Below, piece after piece: positions 3,157 through 36,211 of a DNA stretch of 45,376 nt. Numbering within the stretch: position 1 is the first letter of the stretch; the number at the start of each line of letters is the position of its first letter. A program made the translations under genes and the position numbers. Under the pieces are notes generated by a model. That model was not told the DNA's origin. It saw only the letters and a program-made list of their open reading frames with translations, and made no database searches. Source of the stretch: Nitrososphaerota archaeon (GTDB taxonomy: Archaea > Thermoproteota > Nitrososphaeria > Conexivisphaerales > DTJL01); NCBI GenBank assembly GCA_021324115.1, contig JAJPJS010000012.1, positions 1 through 45,376 of the forward strand, read 5' to 3'.

Positions 3157-3228
3157 TGGACTGGGGGGGACTCGAACCCCCGACCTCTCCCATGCCAAGG
3201 GAGCATTCTACCCCTGAACTACCAGCCC
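3157..3228 (-). tRNA. tRNA-Ala (anticodon GGC)
   Basis: On the minus strand a complete cloverleaf is visible: acceptor GGGCTGG/CCAGTCC, T8-A9, D-stem GTTC/GAAT, anticodon arm CTCCC TTGGCAT GGGAG with anticodon GGC, T-arm GGGGG TTCGAGT CCCCC and discriminator A. The acceptor has the G3-U70 wobble pair that is the alanine identity element. CCA is not encoded and no intron is present. A TATA-like box (minus strand GGATAAATATTC, around 3250-3261) lies about 30 bases upstream, inside the last codons of the topoisomerase gene. Confidence 0.93.
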
Positions 3229-9883: not shown

Positions 9884-10452
9884 CTGTGATTCCTCCTTTC
9901 CAGCACTCCTATCTTAACTGAACTCGGGCGAAGCACCTTGCCATCGAACATAAATCCCTTGCGTATTTCTTCCACCACCTTTCCCACCTTCTCCAGAGGG
10001 ACAGCCACCTCACCGACAGCCTCGTGAAGGTCTGGGTCAAAATCTTTGCCAACGGATTCAATGGGTTCAAGCCCTTCCTTCCGGAGCAGTGCAACAGTCT
10101 TGGTGTAAACCACCTGTATTCCATTGATCATCTCCTGTTTATCATCGCTCCTCTTGATCGCTTCGAGCGCCAGTTCCAGTTCATCAAGTATCGTCAGTAT
10201 TTCAGATACAAGCTTTGATACATTGACCTTTTCAGCTTCAATTCTCTCCCGTTCGACTCTTTTCCTGAAGTTCTCAAAATCGGCTTGAAGGTACTGAAGC
10301 CTCTTCAGATATTCTTCAGCCCGTGCGTGCTCTCTGTCCAGTTCAGTCTTCAGTGATTCGATTTCCTTCTCATGAGTGGTGTTAACAACCTCAGAGCTCT
10401 GAGGTTCTGTTTCACTCCTTGCATTTTCTGCGCTATGCGATTGTTCACTCAT
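9880..10452 (-). CDS. grpE: Nucleotide exchange factor GrpE
   Basis: The 190-residue product has an acidic, Ser-rich N-terminus, a long coiled coil (about residues 26-90, with [22 protein letters not shown]) for dimerisation and the GrpE signature [17 protein letters not shown] near the end. It promotes ADP release from DnaK, encoded directly downstream with a 4-base overlap. It is first in the heat-shock operon; the divergent spacer to the ABC transporter holds the inverted repeat GCAATT-N5-AATTGC and TATA-like sequences. Confidence 0.95.
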
Positions 10453-29985: not shown

Positions 29986-30624
29986 TCACATCACCCCGTC
30001 GGATTCCTTTGCCCTTTTAACGAACTCTTTCATGAGTAGGGGGTCCTTTATTCCAGGTGACCGCTCCAAACGTGATGAGGCATCGACTCCGTATGGGCGG
30101 ACTATTTTCACAGCATCTACAACATTGTCTGGCCCAACTCCGCCTGCCAGAATAAGGGGCTTTGGCGAGATCTCATCTTTTATCTTCGAACAAAGATCGA
30201 AATCCTGGGCTACACCTGTGCCTCCCCTCAAACCTGACCTGTAAGAGTCTACGACGAGACCATCGTATCCACTGACCGCCTTTCCTGCACTGACCCTTTC
30301 GTGTCCAACTATGTACGGCCTAAGTACATCCACGTTCAATGTTTCCCTAATGGGGACCGGGTCCGAACAATCGTACAATTGCAAAGTATCGATTTGCAGC
30401 TTGCTTATCACATTGAGGTTATGTTTCAGAAAGGTTTCCGTGGTGACCAATACTGCTGATACAAACGGGGGGACGGATGTGCTAAGGTCGGTGACCCTTT
30501 CCAGTGAGATATTTCTAGGAGATTCGGGAAACCCGGCTATAAAGCCAACCGCGTCGACACCAGCCTCAACTGCTGCCCGCAGGTCAACCTGTCGTGTTAT
30601 CCCACATATTTTTACTCTCACCAT
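29986..30624 (-). CDS. trpF: Phosphoribosylanthranilate isomerase
   Basis: Amadori rearrangement in tryptophan synthesis. The 212-residue TIM barrel begins VKICGITRQVDLRAAVEAG with the catalytic cysteine, has VDAVGFI, VDTLQLYD and PLILAGGVGPDNV, and ends with GVDASSRLERSPGIKD containing the conserved VDxSS motif. ATG at 30624, two bases after the trpC stop. Confidence 0.94.
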   Translation of the reverse strand: MVRVKICGITRQVDLRAAVEAGVDAVGFIAGFPESPRNISLERVTDLSTSVPPFVSAVLVTTETFLKHNLNVISKLQIDTLQLYDCSDPVPIRETLNVDVLRPYIVGHERVSAGKAVSGYDGLVVDSYRSGLRGGTGVAQDFDLCSKIKDEISPKPLILAGGVGPDNVVDAVKIVRPYGVDASSRLERSPGIKDPLLMKEFVKRAKESDGVM

Positions 30625-30626
30625 AT

Positions 30627-31409
30627 CTATTCCCCCTTTAGCTCCCTAAGCTTCGCAAGGGGATCATCGGCTTTCATCAGGGTAGATCCTACAAGAAATG
30701 CATCAATACCCAATTTTGAAAACCTTTCAATCTCTGACCTATCTTTGAATCCACTTTCACTCACAACCGGTTTGTCTGGTTTACCAATCGCTAGCAGTTT
30801 TTCCGTGGTTGCCAGCGAAGTCTCCAACGTCATGAGGTTTCTATTGTTTATGCCAATCAAGTCAGCATCAGTCTTGGCCGCTCGTATGTACTCCTCTTCG
30901 TCGTGAACTTCGAGAAGCACTTCAAGTCCTAACGAATGTGAATATGAAATCAAATCGGTCAGGGGGGAGTTGGCCAAGCCCGATTGGAACACGCCCATTA
31001 TAAGTAGAACCGCATCTGCACCAAGTCGACGACCCGCTTCGACCTGGATCCGGTCTATGATGATATCTTTCATCAGTACTGGAATCTTCACACGACTCTT
31101 GACCTCAGCAAGAGAATTCAAATTTCCACCAAAATGTTTTGGCTCTGTAATAACGGAAATTGCAGATGCACCTCCGCACTCGTATCTAATCGCAACATCT
31201 TCGGCTGGTCCGGCGCTTCTCAATCGACCTTCCGCCGGTGAGATGAACTTCACTTCTGCGATTATTGGTGTGGTATCACGTTTGATGGCCTCGAGCAGAC
31301 TTGTGTGGTGGAAATTAAGAGATTTTTTAACTGAATAATAACCTTGGGCAATAGACGTCTTGGCTGATTCCGTCAGGACAGAAAGGAAGTTACGTTGTGT
31401 TTTCTGCAA
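30627..31409 (-). CDS. trpC: Indole-3-glycerol phosphate synthase
   Basis: Ring-closing decarboxylation. The 260-residue protein has PIIAEVKFISPAEGRLR with the catalytic lysine, the substrate KDII in VLMKDIIIDRIQV, ADAVLLIMGVF, IGINNRNLMTLETS and VVSESGFKDRSEI. TTG at 31409 overlaps the trpD end by 20 bases in another frame. Confidence 0.95.
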   Translation of the reverse strand: MQKTQRNFLSVLTESAKTSIAQGYYSVKKSLNFHHTSLLEAIKRDTTPIIAEVKFISPAEGRLRSAGPAEDVAIRYECGGASAISVITEPKHFGGNLNSLAEVKSRVKIPVLMKDIIIDRIQVEAGRRLGADAVLLIMGVFQSGLANSPLTDLISYSHSLGLEVLLEVHDEEEYIRAAKTDADLIGINNRNLMTLETSLATTEKLLAIGKPDKPVVSESGFKDRSEIERFSKLGIDAFLVGSTLMKADDPLAKLRELKGE

Positions 31410-32445
31410 CCTGTTTCACCCCTACCGAATCCCTTTGCGCGAAACTTACCAATGCTTGGAGTTTCTTCAATGCTTCACCTGTTTCGATTGACAGATTGGC
31501 AAGTTCGCATCCTTCCTTGAAGTCATCCACCAACCCAGAAACCACTAGTGCACCAGCAGCGTTGACTACGACCATATCATGCGCAAGGCCATGAGCGCCG
31601 CCACTCAATATCTTCATGGTCAAGGTCGCACTTTCTTCTACATTCGAGATCCTTATCGGAGGTTCTGTGTAAAGTCTTACACCCATTTCTTCTGGGGTGT
31701 ATTCGAACGTCTCTATCTTTCCATTCTTCAGCCAAGACAGCACAGTTTTTCCCCTGACAGATATTTCGTCCACACCTTCAGAACCATGTACAACTATCGC
31801 CTCATCCAAACCGGAGATCTTCAGAACCTCCGCCATCACCGGCACGAGAGATTCAGAGTATACCCCCATCAGCTGTCCACGTATCGGCACAGGATTCAGT
31901 AAGGGACCCATCAGGTTGAATACTGTCCTTATCCCGAGTTCCTTTCTGATGCCAGCAACCTTTTTCAATGCAGGATGGAAAGCGGGAGCAAAGAGAAACC
32001 CGATACCTATCTCTTCCAATGACTTCTGCACCGAATCGGGAGAGGCATTCAGGTTCAGGCCGAGTTTTTCAAGCAGATCAGCACTTCCGCACCGGCTACT
32101 CACCGACCTGTTACCATGCTTTGCAACCTTTGCACCCGCCCCTGCAGCAACAATTGCAGCCAAGGTGCTCACATTGAATGTTCCGGACATGTCGCCTCCT
32201 GTGCCGCATGTGTCTATTATTCGACCGGAAATTTTGGGGAACAATCTGACGCTGAACTGCCTGAGTGCCTTGGCAAAAGAGGCCATTTCGGCCGGTGTTT
32301 CCCCCTTCATCTTCAATCCTAACAAAAGTGCACCAATCTGAGCTGCGGAGGCCCTTCCGTCGACGATCTCCTGGACGGATTCAGATATCAAATCAGAATC
32401 TAGGTCTGAACGGTCTGCCACTTTCTTAATCGCAAGTTCTATCAT
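31390..32445 (-). CDS. trpD: Anthranilate phosphoribosyltransferase
   Basis: Transfers phosphoribose to anthranilate. At 351 residues it is full length with IIDTCGTGGDMSGTFNVSTLAA (split: CGTGGD and FNVST are the PRPP motifs), AKHGNRSVSSRCGSADLLE and the GLNLN and RTVFNLMGPLLNP regions. ATG at 32445 follows GGAGGATA, which doubles as the end of trpG. Confidence 0.95.
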   Translation of the reverse strand: MIELAIKKVADRSDLDSDLISESVQEIVDGRASAAQIGALLLGLKMKGETPAEMASFAKALRQFSVRLFPKISGRIIDTCGTGGDMSGTFNVSTLAAIVAAGAGAKVAKHGNRSVSSRCGSADLLEKLGLNLNASPDSVQKSLEEIGIGFLFAPAFHPALKKVAGIRKELGIRTVFNLMGPLLNPVPIRGQLMGVYSESLVPVMAEVLKISGLDEAIVVHGSEGVDEISVRGKTVLSWLKNGKIETFEYTPEEMGVRLYTEPPIRISNVEESATLTMKILSGGAHGLAHDMVVVNAAGALVVSGLVDDFKEGCELANLSIETGEALKKLQALVSFAQRDSVGVKQVAENTT

Positions 32446-32447
32446 AA

Positions 32448-33035
32448 CTATCCTCCGACCTGCCGAAGAAAATTGTGGAGAATCTTGACCCCTTCCTTGG
32501 TCATTATCGATTCTGGGTGGAATTGGATCCCTTCGATCGGGTACGAAGCATGTCGGATTCCCATTATCTCCCCATCATCAAGGGAGAGCGCAGTAACCTT
32601 CAGAAAGCTGGGCAGGCTGTTTTTATCTATCACTAAGGAATGGTATCTTGTAGCAACTAAGGGATTCTCCACTCCACTGAGTACGCCCTTTCCGTCGTGG
32701 ATGATCCTGCTCGTCTTTCCATGCATCAAAACACCAGCACGAACTATTCTGGCACCGAAGGTGCAACCTATTCCCTGATTTCCAAGGCAGATTCCAAGCG
32801 TAGGAATAGTTGGCCCGAACTCCGATATCACAGTTCCGCAGATGCCAAAGGACCTGGCTTCCTCTGGATTTCCCGGACCGGGAGAAATGATTATTCTATC
32901 AGGAGCCAATTTCCTTATCTCTTCAACAGTTATTTCATCATTTCTCCTAACTATGGGGTCTGCACCAAGGGAGCCTACGTGCTGCGCTATGTTGTAAACA
33001 AAAGAATCATAATTATCGAGAATAAGCACCTTCAT
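32448..33035 (-). CDS. trpG: Anthranilate synthase glutamine amidotransferase subunit
   Basis: Supplies ammonia to TrpE. The 195-residue class I amidotransferase has DNYDSFVYNIAQ, SPGPGNPEEA, the nucleophile in LGICLGNQGIG, and the His-Glu pair in IQFHPESIMT. The usual GHQ after the cysteine is GNQ. ATG overlaps the trpE stop (ATGA), consistent with equal production of the complex. Confidence 0.95.
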   Translation of the reverse strand: MKVLILDNYDSFVYNIAQHVGSLGADPIVRRNDEITVEEIRKLAPDRIIISPGPGNPEEARSFGICGTVISEFGPTIPTLGICLGNQGIGCTFGARIVRAGVLMHGKTSRIIHDGKGVLSGVENPLVATRYHSLVIDKNSLPSFLKVTALSLDDGEIMGIRHASYPIEGIQFHPESIMTKEGVKILHNFLRQVGG

Positions 33036-34429
33036 CTATTTCCTGCCTCCGCCTGTCTGGCCGATTTCAGCAGTGCCGCGGCCTTGGCCTCGGTTTCATT
33101 CCATTCCCGGTCTGCTTGTGAGTCTGCCACTATACCGGCGCCGGCTTGCACCGAGCATCTCTCGCCATTCGCAAGCAGAGTTCTGATCGCAATCGCAAAA
33201 TCTGCATTTCCATTGAATGAGAAATATCCCACCGCCCCAGCGTACACCTCACGGTTGTCAGGTTCAAGCTCATCTATGATCTCCATCGCTCTGACCTTTG
33301 GTGCGCCGGACACCGTGCCTGCGGGAAAGACAGCCCCGATCACATCATAACTGTCTAGGCCTCTTCTCAGAACCCCGGTTACATGAGATACTATATGCTG
33401 GACATGACTGAACTGATGAACCGATGCGAAACTGGGAACTGCTACCGTTCCATACGTCGACACTTTGCCGATATCGTTTCTGGCAAGATCCACAAGCATT
33501 GTATGCTCTGCCATTTCCTTAGGGTCGCCAAGAAGATCTCTTTTCAGAATTTCATTCCTTTCTGGGTCTTTTAGTTTTGGTCTTGTTCCAGCTATGGGAA
33601 AGGTTTCAACACGTCCTTCATCAACACGAACCAGCATCTCGGGGCTGGAACCGACCACTCTTCTCCTTCCGAATTTCAGGAAATACATGTAAGGCGAGGG
33701 GTTTATCCGGCTCAGCTCGGAATAAAACCGAACCAGATCACCTTCGTAGTCAAATTCGAATCTCTTCGAAAGAACCACCTGGAATACGTCGCCAGCAAGT
33801 ATGTAGTCTTTGGCCCTCTCAACCATGTCGCCAAATCTTGCCTTGGTCACGGACCTTTGTGGCTTGGAGAAACGTACGGCTCCCTTGACCGCATCCAGTT
33901 TCAAAATCCTGATGAGTTCGTTATATCGGCTCTTACCCAGGTGCCAGTAAAACTTCAGCCCCCTTTTGTGATCAAATACTACACCATCAAGATAAACACC
34001 AAACTCCATCGTTGGGAAGCCGGAGTGGGGCTTCTTGCCGGAGGATAGTTTTTCCCAGTACCTTACGCTGTCATACCCTATGTATCCTACAGCCCCGCCA
34101 CCGAATCTGAACGGGCTGGCGAACATATTGGATTGTACAATCTTCTTAATTATATGAAGAGGGTCGGGGGCATATATTTCATCAACGGTATCTTTTTCCA
34201 GATCTTGCACCAAGACCCTGCTTGCATTGGCTTCGATCTTCATCGCAGGATCATAACCGATGAAAGAATAATCCGCCAGTCTTTCTATGCCGGTCGAAGA
34301 TTCAAGGAGGAAGGCATTCTCGCACTGCTCCTGAACCTTGATGAACAACTCTTGCGGGGTATCTGTTATGTCTAGCCTCTGAACCTTCAGATTCGATGCC
34401 ATTACTGTGCGCTCGGGTAGTACCTTCAA
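33032..34429 (-). CDS. trpE: Anthranilate synthase component I
   Basis: Makes anthranilate from chorismate. The 465-residue product contains FLLESSTGIERLADYSFIG; LLES is the tryptophan-binding feedback motif, so allosteric inhibition is likely. Catalytic blocks include SPYMYFLKFG, GSSPEMLVRVDEG, PIAGTRPR-like PIAGTRPKLKDPE, DLARNDIGKV, VFPAGTVSGAPK and QAGAGIVADS. TTG at 34429 is chosen because GGAGG lies seven bases before it; the frame opens further to 34474 but that part contains the presumed TATA box. ATG at 34402 is another candidate. Confidence 0.95.
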   Translation of the reverse strand: MKVLPERTVMASNLKVQRLDITDTPQELFIKVQEQCENAFLLESSTGIERLADYSFIGYDPAMKIEANASRVLVQDLEKDTVDEIYAPDPLHIIKKIVQSNMFASPFRFGGGAVGYIGYDSVRYWEKLSSGKKPHSGFPTMEFGVYLDGVVFDHKRGLKFYWHLGKSRYNELIRILKLDAVKGAVRFSKPQRSVTKARFGDMVERAKDYILAGDVFQVVLSKRFEFDYEGDLVRFYSELSRINPSPYMYFLKFGRRRVVGSSPEMLVRVDEGRVETFPIAGTRPKLKDPERNEILKRDLLGDPKEMAEHTMLVDLARNDIGKVSTYGTVAVPSFASVHQFSHVQHIVSHVTGVLRRGLDSYDVIGAVFPAGTVSGAPKVRAMEIIDELEPDNREVYAGAVGYFSFNGNADFAIAIRTLLANGERCSVQAGAGIVADSQADREWNETEAKAAALLKSARQAEAGNR

Positions 34430-34448
34430 GTACCGCCCTCCATCTGAT

Positions 34449-34505
34449 GCATATTTATAACCGTTTACGTACATTATTATACATCAAAGTACAGAATGTT
34501 TATAA
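34449..34505. promoter_or_regulatory. trpE/trpB2 divergent promoter with 10-bp phased repeats
   Basis: Three related sites, CGTACA (34468), TATACA (34478) and AGTACA (34488), recur at exact 10-base steps, one helical turn. They resemble TGTACA, the TRP box bound by TrpY in Methanothermobacter. The stretch ATACATCAAAGTACA (34479-34493) matches 13 of 15 bases with the aro promoter. TTATAAATATGC at 34449-34460 (minus) is a TATA box for trpE; TTATTATA at 34474-34481 could serve trpB2. No trpY-like gene is in the window. Confidence 0.5.
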
Positions 34506-35870
34506 GTGGTGGCTAAGCAGGCAGCCCGACCAAAATTGGAAGCGTTAACTTCCGTCCATCTTACACAGGAAGAGATACCGAAATACTGGTATAACATAAT
34601 ACCAGACCTGCCGGCACCTCTACCGCCTCCCCTTGATCCCTCAACCATGCAGCCGCTGAATCCGGCAAAAGGAGAGAGGCTCTTCGCCAAGGAGCTGATA
34701 AGGCAGGAGATTTCCTCCGAACCAACAATAAAGATTCCCGATGAAGTGATTCAGGCTTACCATATGATAGGGAGACCGACCCCTCTGATAAGGGCCAGGA
34801 AGCTGGAGGAAGCACTCAATACACCGGCCGAAATCTACTTCAAGTCGGAGGCACTCAACGCTAGCGGAAGCCACAAAATCAACACTGCGCTGGCTCAGGC
34901 ATACTATAACAAGGCGCAGGGCACAGAAAGGGTGGTAACAGAAACGGGGGCAGGTCAGTGGGGTTCGGCATTGGCCATGGCCGCAGGTCTTTTCGACCTG
35001 CAATGCGAGGTTTACATGGTAAGGGCGAGTTATGACCAGAAGCCAGGGCGAAGGATCATGATGGAGACCTACGGCGCGAAGGTTAGACCCTCCCCAAGCG
35101 ATAACACGGATTACGGCAAGAGCCTCCTGAAACAAGACATGAATCATCCAGGTTCTCTCGGCGTCGCTATTTCAGAAGCGATCGAGGATACCGTCAAGCA
35201 TGAAAATACCAGGTACTGCCTTGGTTCTGTCCTGAACCATGTCCTACTTCATCAGACCGTGGTTGGGCAGGAAGCTAAAAAGCAGCTAGAGATGATAGAC
35301 AGAACACCCGACGTTGTGATAGGTTGCATTGGAGGGGGCTCAAACTTCGCCGGTTTCGCCTATCCACTTCTCCGTGATAAGCTGAAGGGCAAACTTGATG
35401 GTACTCGTTTTGTTGCGGTGGAACCTACTGCTGTCCCCTCCACCACCAAGGGGAAGTATGAATATGACTTTGGTGACACGGGCGAAATGACCTTCCTGGT
35501 GAAGATGTACACACTCGGCCACAAATTTACCCCTCCGCCTATCCATGCTGGTGGGCTGCGATATCATGGCAAGGCACCCTCTCTCTGCTTGCTTATCAAC
35601 AAAGGGTTGATGGAATCGGTGGCCTACAGGCAGACAGAAGTGTTCGCAGCAGCGAAGATGTTTGCACGCTACACAGGTATAATACCGGCACCAGAATCTG
35701 CACATGCAGTGAAAAAGGCAATCGACGAAGCGTTGGATGCAAAGGCTAAGAATGAGCGAAAGGTGATAGTTTTCAATCTAAGCGGTCATGGATTGCTTGA
35801 CCTTAGTGCGTATGAACAATTTAACGCAAACAAACTCGTAGATTATGAATATAAGCCTCTTTCCAATTAG
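34506..35870 (+). CDS. trpB2: TrpB-like tryptophan synthase beta (TrpB2 type)
   Basis: The 454-residue protein belongs to the TrpB2 group: long N-terminal extension with YWYNIIPDLPAPLPPPLDP, RPTPLIRARKLEEAL, the PLP lysine in ASGSHKINTALAQAYY, TETGAGQWGSALAMAAG, CIGGGSNFAGFAYP and GLRYHGKAPSLC. TrpB2 enzymes generally do not need TrpA and may salvage free indole or act on phosphoserine. It diverges from trpE and shares its control region. GTG at 34506 (or 34509) starts within a few bases of the expected transcription start, so the mRNA may be leaderless. Confidence 0.94.
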   Translation: MVAKQAARPKLEALTSVHLTQEEIPKYWYNIIPDLPAPLPPPLDPSTMQPLNPAKGERLFAKELIRQEISSEPTIKIPDEVIQAYHMIGRPTPLIRARKLEEALNTPAEIYFKSEALNASGSHKINTALAQAYYNKAQGTERVVTETGAGQWGSALAMAAGLFDLQCEVYMVRASYDQKPGRRIMMETYGAKVRPSPSDNTDYGKSLLKQDMNHPGSLGVAISEAIEDTVKHENTRYCLGSVLNHVLLHQTVVGQEAKKQLEMIDRTPDVVIGCIGGGSNFAGFAYPLLRDKLKGKLDGTRFVAVEPTAVPSTTKGKYEYDFGDTGEMTFLVKMYTLGHKFTPPPIHAGGLRYHGKAPSLCLLINKGLMESVAYRQTEVFAAAKMFARYTGIIPAPESAHAVKKAIDEALDAKAKNERKVIVFNLSGHGLLDLSAYEQFNANKLVDYEYKPLSN

Positions 35871-35935
35871 ATCGAGAACCCAATACCTTTTTATCGCTTC
35901 CAATCAGGACCCTTGTTTGGTCCCGCCCCGCGGTA

Positions 35936-35955
35936 AGGGAAAAAATCCCCCGCAG
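35936..35955 (+). other. tRNA-Tyr intron 1 (between positions 9 and 10)
   Basis: A 20-base noncanonical intron that folds as GGGA-AAAAA-TCCC. The BHB is helix GCGG/CCGC with bulges TA|A and AG|G. The same GCGG belongs to the acceptor stem of the mature tRNA, so this intron must be cut while the acceptor is refolded. Confidence 0.85.
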
Positions 35956-35977
35956 GCTCAGCCTGGTAGAGCTTCCG

Positions 35978-36005
35978 ACGTCGGCGGATTCCGTCGATGG
36001 GAGAC
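35978..36005 (+). other. tRNA-Tyr intron 2 (between positions 30 and 31)
   Basis: A 28-base intron inside the anticodon stem. BHB helix CTTC/GGAG (one G-U pair) with bulges CG|A and AC|G. Its removal restores the TCCGG/CCGGA stem that intron 3 recognition depends on, so order of splicing may matter. Confidence 0.85.
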
Positions 36006-36012
36006 GCTGTAG

Positions 36013-36056
36013 TGGTTGGCCCTGGCTAACCCGTTCAGTCTACTAGGCTCACAGAA
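36013..36056 (+). other. tRNA-Tyr intron 3 (canonical 37/38)
   Basis: A 44-base intron at the standard archaeal and eukaryotic position, one base 3' of the anticodon. BHB helix CTGT/ACAG is fully paired, with bulges AG|T and AA|A. The helix uses three anticodon-loop bases including T33 and G34-T35. Confidence 0.9.
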
Positions 36057-36211
36057 ACCGGAGTGTCGCAGGCTCAAATCCTGCCCGCGGGACCAGCATA
36101 TTCGCTTAGTGGAAACTGTAAACCTTCCAAACTCGGCCGTGGTGTCCTTGAACAGATATATATTGCACAAGTAAAGGCAGGGTGTCGTTATAGCGAGGAT
36201 GTTGATTTAGG

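Follow-up and report, generated by a model that had tools for sequence, protein, structure and literature searches.

The tRNA-Tyr(GUA) gene of a Nitrososphaerota archaeon is interrupted by three BHB introns, and in the explanation that we favor, with a probability of roughly 0.6, a short leader and the third intron hold its precursor in a non-cloverleaf fold. The locus is best explained as a functional, single-copy gene. It lies in a window of 45,376 nucleotides, the whole stretch of DNA that was analyzed (contig JAJPJS010000012.1 of assembly GCA_021324115.1), which is contig C13 of a source genome of 2.14 Mb in 27 contigs that is 95% complete. The leader is complementary to the 3' end of the tRNA and intron 3 carries a complement of the D-loop; both features were missed in the first-pass annotation of this DNA.

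A tRNA-Tyr gene with three introns

Direct reading of the sequence gives four exons in order over 169 bp (35927-36095, forward strand), separated by three small introns (Table 1). The spliced 77-mer is recognized by ARAGORN as tRNA-Tyr(gta) with every stem paired. The unspliced gene was missed by both ARAGORN and Rfam, a warning that annotation tools pass over multi-intron tRNA genes of this kind. At all three junctions the central BHB helix is paired at four of four positions (with one G-U pair, in the helix of intron 2), and each junction has 3-nt bulges with the cut after the second bulge base, which is the pattern of BHB introns. None of the three has both outer helices of the strict hBHBh' form, and all are relaxed HBh'/hBH forms. 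Introns 1 and 2 have no proper outer exon helix, intron 1 being of the HBh' type, and intron 3 has only two continuous inner pairs and an outer helix that is possible only once the anticodon stem can form.

Table 1. Features of the tRNA-Tyr locus, in window coordinates
Feature	Position	Strand	Description
TATA-like box TTTTTATC	35888-35895	+	Direct reading
Leader element TGGTCCCGC, proposed acceptor decoy	35918-35926	+	Perfect complement of the tRNA 3' end, 36087-36095 (GCGGGACCA)
Exon 1	35927-35935	+	5' acceptor strand CCCGCGG, U8 and A9
Intron 1 (9/10)	35936-35955	+	20 nt; H1 = 35930-35933 (GCGG) : 35950-35953 (CCGC)
Exon 2	35956-35977	+	D-arm up to position 30
D-loop A14-G22 AGCCTGGTAG	35960-35969	+	Complementary to 36040-36049 in intron 3
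Intron 2 (30/31)	35978-36005	+	28 nt; H2 = 35972-35975 (CTTC) : 36000-36003 (GGAG); HBh' type
Exon 3	36006-36012	+	G31, C32, U33, anticodon GUA, G37
Intron 3 (37/38)	36013-36056	+	44 nt; H3 = 36007-36010 (CTGT) : 36051-36054 (ACAG)
CAGT (CAGY) segment of intron 3	36036-36039	+	Can pair with G31-G34 (36006-36009)
D-loop complement CTACTAGGCT in intron 3, proposed arm opener	36040-36049	+	Compensatory changes in many families
Exon 4	36057-36095	+	A38, 3' strand of anticodon stem, variable loop, T-arm, 3' acceptor strand, A73, encoded CCA

The exon joins are fixed independently of the BHB argument, since relatives that lack introns 1 and 2 read straight through: in families f2-f5 and f7, which have the 37/38 intron only, CCCxxxxTA-GCTCAGCC..CTTCCGG-CTGTAG is continuous. 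All three introns are kept, at 84-85% identity, in the three further genomes compared from the family, G001, G002 and G003. Retention within the family, together with the same exons joined in distant relatives, puts the three introns beyond chance as far as sequence comparison can tell, and by the standards of such comparison a three-intron tRNA-Tyr gene is a virtual certainty. The first-pass annotation had proposed just this structure, and the spliced form, the fully paired helices and the relatives' exon joins bear out every one of its coordinates. All exons lie in order within the 169 bp, and a split or permuted tRNA was rejected. Elsewhere in the family, a second tRNA-Tyr of G001 (L135, G001:C13, on an 11 kb contig) is identical to that of G002, flanks included; this contig was probably cross-binned and is probably not a second gene.

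A pseudogene or an assembly artefact might also escape the standard tools, as this gene does. The exons, stems and BHB helices are all intact, however, and the architecture is common to four genomes of the family. The first-pass annotation had raised the possibility of a separate intact tRNA-Tyr(GTA), and a search of the 95%-complete source genome turned up no further tRNA-Tyr; the next best match (C19:40671) is a tRNA-Phe(GAA). For practical purposes, a pseudogene or artefact is refuted. The tRNA-Phe(GAA) gene (L150, G000:C19:40671-40759, reverse strand) has a 14-nt D-arm intron of its own near 24/25, with a central helix of four pairs by eye. The window also holds an intron-free tRNA-Ala(GGC) at 3157-3228 on the reverse strand.

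A T-rich box lies about 29-31 nt 5' of GGTCCC in both the source genome and G002. By the usual archaeal spacing, transcription of the tRNA-Tyr gene would start near 35916-35920, that is, at the leader element. Upstream, the translations at 29986-35870 read as the Trp biosynthesis genes trpF, trpC, trpD, trpG, trpE and a TrpB2-like gene, whose end is 56 bp from the tRNA-Tyr gene. A TrpB synteny scan returned one close relative (L087), the remaining loci being unrelated.

Extra introns across the class Nitrososphaeria

Class-wide, tRNA-Tyr genes were sought with a covariance model built on the one-intron gene and with a search pattern for 30/31 introns; the pattern matches G173:C31 and G186:C2 proved not to be tRNAs. 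The 37/38 intron is present in every parsed member of the class, across which intron 3 is homologous, and in some families, such as the large f7, it is the only one. Additional introns occur at 9/10 (f1, f8, f14 [G345] and f22), in the D-arm (f11-f14 and f24), at 30/31 (f1, f8, f13, f14, f16-f19 and f21-f23), at 53/54 (f8, f14, f18, f22 and f23) and at 59/60 (f8, f10, f11, f14, f16, f18, f19 and f21-f23). The combination seen in the window, 9/10 with 30/31 and 37/38, is found in four families. The first-pass annotation had called such an arrangement unusual for a thaumarchaeal-type genome, a view that does not hold up given how widespread extra tRNA-Tyr introns are in the class and that noncanonical thaumarchaeal tRNA introns are documented (PMC8450103). 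The bin G345 holds two RpoB genes of different lineages (G345:C16, L297; G345:C39, L307) and is contaminated by an f7-like genome, yet its tRNA-Tyr looks f14-like.

Some genes go further. Four introns were parsed in the tRNA-Tyr genes of G257/G202, G325 and G173, and five in those of G039 and G282, both of whose spliced forms are tRNA-Tyr according to ARAGORN. The G039 gene (L136, G039:C185:900-1600, reverse strand) has introns at 9/10, 30/31, 37/38, 53/54 and 59/60, and all five central helices have four of four pairs. The G282 gene (L274, G282:C63, about 10149-10182, reverse strand) belongs to a different family; four of four pairs are present in three of its central helices and three of four in the other two, and its leader repeats the acceptor strand exactly. 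PMC8450103, PMC4390854 and PMC3293823 state a maximum of three introns for an archaeal tRNA, and the four- and five-intron genes go beyond it. The three-intron tRNA-Tyr is a known kind of intron structure, and the class holds more extreme genes.

A leader element accompanies the 9/10 intron

The first-pass annotation was right that the 9/10 intron overlaps the acceptor helix: BHB1 depends on bases 4-7 on the 5' side of the acceptor stem, and the 3' side competes for them. A leader of 8-11 nt perfectly complementary to the 3' end is present in seven of seven distinct genes with a 9/10 intron (four in f1 and one each in f8, f14 [G345] and f22), the f22 gene having come from a search that was blind to the leader. 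Genes without the 9/10 intron that were examined for a leader comprise 88 rows and about 40 more, partly overlapping. Among these, only f21 (G275:C17; L229/L270) has such a complement, of 11 nt, and the other controls reach at most 7 pairs (score 6). Two genomes of the same family as G345, G165 and G170, have neither the leader complement nor the intron. The association is significant at the family level (Fisher p = 0.0005, with f14 entered once per side and families treated as independent). In an RpoB tree, which leaves f8 unplaced, f1, G345 and f22 are placed apart and G165 is sister to G345; repeated joint gain or loss of leader and 9/10 intron is therefore probable.

Folding of the precursors gives results in the same direction. 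Pairing probabilities (P) and energies were calculated with ViennaRNA at 37 °C for the RNA alone, free of tertiary contacts and protein. For the window precursor, P(H1) is 1.00 with the leader and 0.01 without it, and BHB1 and BHB2 occur together in one minimum-energy structure. The corresponding values for the other five precursors are 0.92 and 0.00, 0.79 and 0.00, 0.87 and 0.00, 0.99 and 0.00, and 0.11 and 0.00; in f22, H1 (three pairs) reaches about 0.4 with the leader and 0 without. Shuffled leaders sometimes raise P(H1) as well (27 of 50 for the window, 1-18 of 50 elsewhere), and because this control is noisy, the co-occurrence is the stronger evidence for the leader.

An alternative origin of the leader is that it is a scar, left when the 5' acceptor end (UGGUCCCGCGG) was duplicated as the 9/10 intron was gained, in which case its complementarity to the 3' end would be passive. 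The f22 leader, an exact copy of the acceptor strand that abuts it, would fit such an event, as would f21, which has the leader and no 9/10 intron. In f1, however, the sequence upstream of the leader has fully diverged while GGTCCCGC is invariant across four species in three genera, which suggests selection, and the copies in f1, f8 and f14 have diverged and still keep 8-11 pairs. We therefore consider a scar improbable.

Complementarity between the D-loop and intron 3

With the introns aligned to themselves, the D-loop-complement columns keep their pairing in almost every one of 99 unique genes, and most departures are shifts by a single base. Sixteen families have C-G at position 17, eight have U-A, one has U-G and none has C-A. 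Position 20 is U-A, U-G or C-G within the class and A-U in f36, outside it; position 15 is G-C, or A-U in f6. In 21 variants anchored independently of the D-loop, 95.2% of cells are paired versus 16-52% in slid registers, and there are 10 double changes versus 4.0 in shuffles, of which none of 500 reaches 10. Pairing of the CAGY segment with G31-G34 is possible in 99 of 99 unique genes, with few informative changes. The covariation indicates that the helix is very probably a real, selected structure. It is found beyond the class too, in other families of the phylum, and an ancient origin of the pairing within the phylum, as part of a joint scheme of strand decoys, seems to us about evenly balanced.

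Other readings of intron 3 were considered. An internal hairpin, AGCCT/AGGCT, as the reason for the conservation of the D-loop complement was rejected because it is mismatched in U17 lineages while the D-loop pairing is kept. A guide-RNA intron of the box C/D or H/ACA type was also rejected: no boxes were seen by eye, and Rfam gave no match at E<=5 save one that was spurious. A pseudoknot of the D-loop:intron helix with H3 is possible, but energy folding favors a nested rod, which is the lowest-energy fold in seven of nine precursors and lies 1-4.5 kcal/mol below the alternative in which the anticodon stem and BHB3 form.

BHB2 requires C25-C28, bases of the D and anticodon stems that the nested rod leaves unpaired. 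In the window, intron 3 raises P(H2) from 0.02 to 0.63. In each of the 27 genes that carry a 30/31 intron, P(H2) drops once intron 3 is taken out or its complement is shuffled, the mean going from 0.19 to 0.00. Most species have modest values of P(H2) (0.1-0.4), and f13, f23 and f8 have values close to 0.

The D-loop:intron helix may have a different function, for instance as a precursor-specific fold for anticodon or D-loop modification or as a delay in forming the mature elbow, with its use by the 30/31 intron being secondary. The helix is conserved in genes that lack the 30/31 intron, including 37/38-only genes, and in other families of the phylum; its original role was therefore something else or more general, and arm opening is not its sole role. 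Modification of tRNA that depends on an intron is known from eukaryotes (PMC4090602), and the source genome has a TruD/Pus7-family gene. The tRNA-Tyr locus itself offers no positive evidence for modification, and the helix favors BHB2 in 27 of 27 genes with a 30/31 intron. We give this alternative a real but minority chance, and it is compatible with a precursor held in a non-cloverleaf fold by leader and intron.

Proposed mechanism of splicing

Introns 1 and 2 require strands of the acceptor (4-7) and of the D and anticodon stems (25-28), and for that reason the precursor appears to be kept in a non-cloverleaf fold. The leader would capture the 3' acceptor strand and leave the 5' GCGG free for BHB1, and intron 3 would pair with the D-loop and with G31-G34 and leave C25-C28 free for BHB2. 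As long as intron 2 remains, P(H3) is 0, so intron 2 is predicted to leave before intron 3; after its removal P(H3) rises in some species only. The anticodon stem could then form, followed by BHB3, and intron 3 would be the last to go. An ordered splicing path, which the first-pass annotation had thought possible, is supported as a prediction. That the leader and the D-loop:intron helix act as decoys for the splicing of introns 1 and 2 has, in our judgment, slightly better than an even chance. The wider proposition, that built-in strand decoys in pre-tRNA-Tyr delay the cloverleaf until the overlapping introns are out and thereby permit up to five introns, we would put at even odds.

One alternative is that this is an ordinary multi-intron tRNA whose complementarities are idle in splicing, the enzyme either opening the arms itself or acting co-transcriptionally, when the 3' half has yet to be made. 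Examples of multi-intron tRNAs whose BHBs are relaxed are on record (PMC8450103, PMC4390854, PMC4090602), and a nascent 5' fragment would, by this reasoning, be without the competing 3' acceptor strand. Neither the co-occurrence of leader and 9/10 intron in four families nor the compensatory changes between D-loop and intron would be expected of idle pairings, however, and we regard this alternative as unlikely, if less so than a scar.

As to the enzymes, the first-pass annotation had singled out the subunit type of the splicing endonuclease. The source genome has two different PF01974 subunit genes: that at G000:C26:195258 is closest to the Aeropyrum-type subunit in 3p1z_B/3ajv_B, and that at G000:C9:38571 is a divergent relative, with an RtcB gene directly upstream on the same strand (G000:C9:36927-38825). 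Judged from the genes alone, the pair matches a heteromeric (alpha2beta2-type) endonuclease. Such a two-subunit (alpha/beta type) enzyme would remove the introns and RtcB would seal the exons. If correct, the mechanism would explain how splicing copes with introns lying across the acceptor and anticodon stems, with competing strands postponing the folding of the tRNA.

Comparison with known systems

The intron of archaeal tRNA-Trp acts as a box C/D guide and, like intron 3 of tRNA-Tyr, has conserved complementarity to its own tRNA. In intron 3, no C/D or H/ACA boxes were recognized, and the pairing is with the D-loop and G31-G34. Among Thermoproteales, three-intron pre-tRNAs include tRNA-Glu(UUC) of Pyrobaculum calidifontis and tRNA-Pro(UGG) of P. 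islandicum, according to passages of PMC4390854. They resemble the tRNA-Tyr precursor in having three BHB introns per tRNA at canonical and noncanonical sites, and differ in the tRNAs and lineage concerned; those passages describe neither a leader complementary to the 3' end nor an intron:D-loop helix. Closer in lineage, and of the same intron type, are the 107 noncanonical tRNA introns of Thaumarchaeota (PMC8450103) and those of 'Ca. Caldiarchaeum subterraneum', in which three of 45 tRNAs have multiple introns (PMC3293823). The multi-intron tRNAs named for Caldiarchaeum are Leu, Glu[CUG] and Thr rather than Tyr (PMC3293823), and neither source gives a case with five introns.

In the open-access literature we found no earlier description of a leader decoy or arm opener, of the co-occurrence of leader and intron, or of a covarying D-loop:intron helix, and the architecture, as predicted here by computation, is apparently undescribed so far. 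Split and permuted tRNAs, of Nanoarchaeum and others, whose leader and trailer sequences are complementary, offer a further likeness in that base pairing by flanking sequence shapes the splicing substrate (PMC3218864, PMC4090602). In those tRNAs the flanks form the BHB itself, whereas the tRNA-Tyr leader would pair with the mature 3' end on behalf of a separate BHB.
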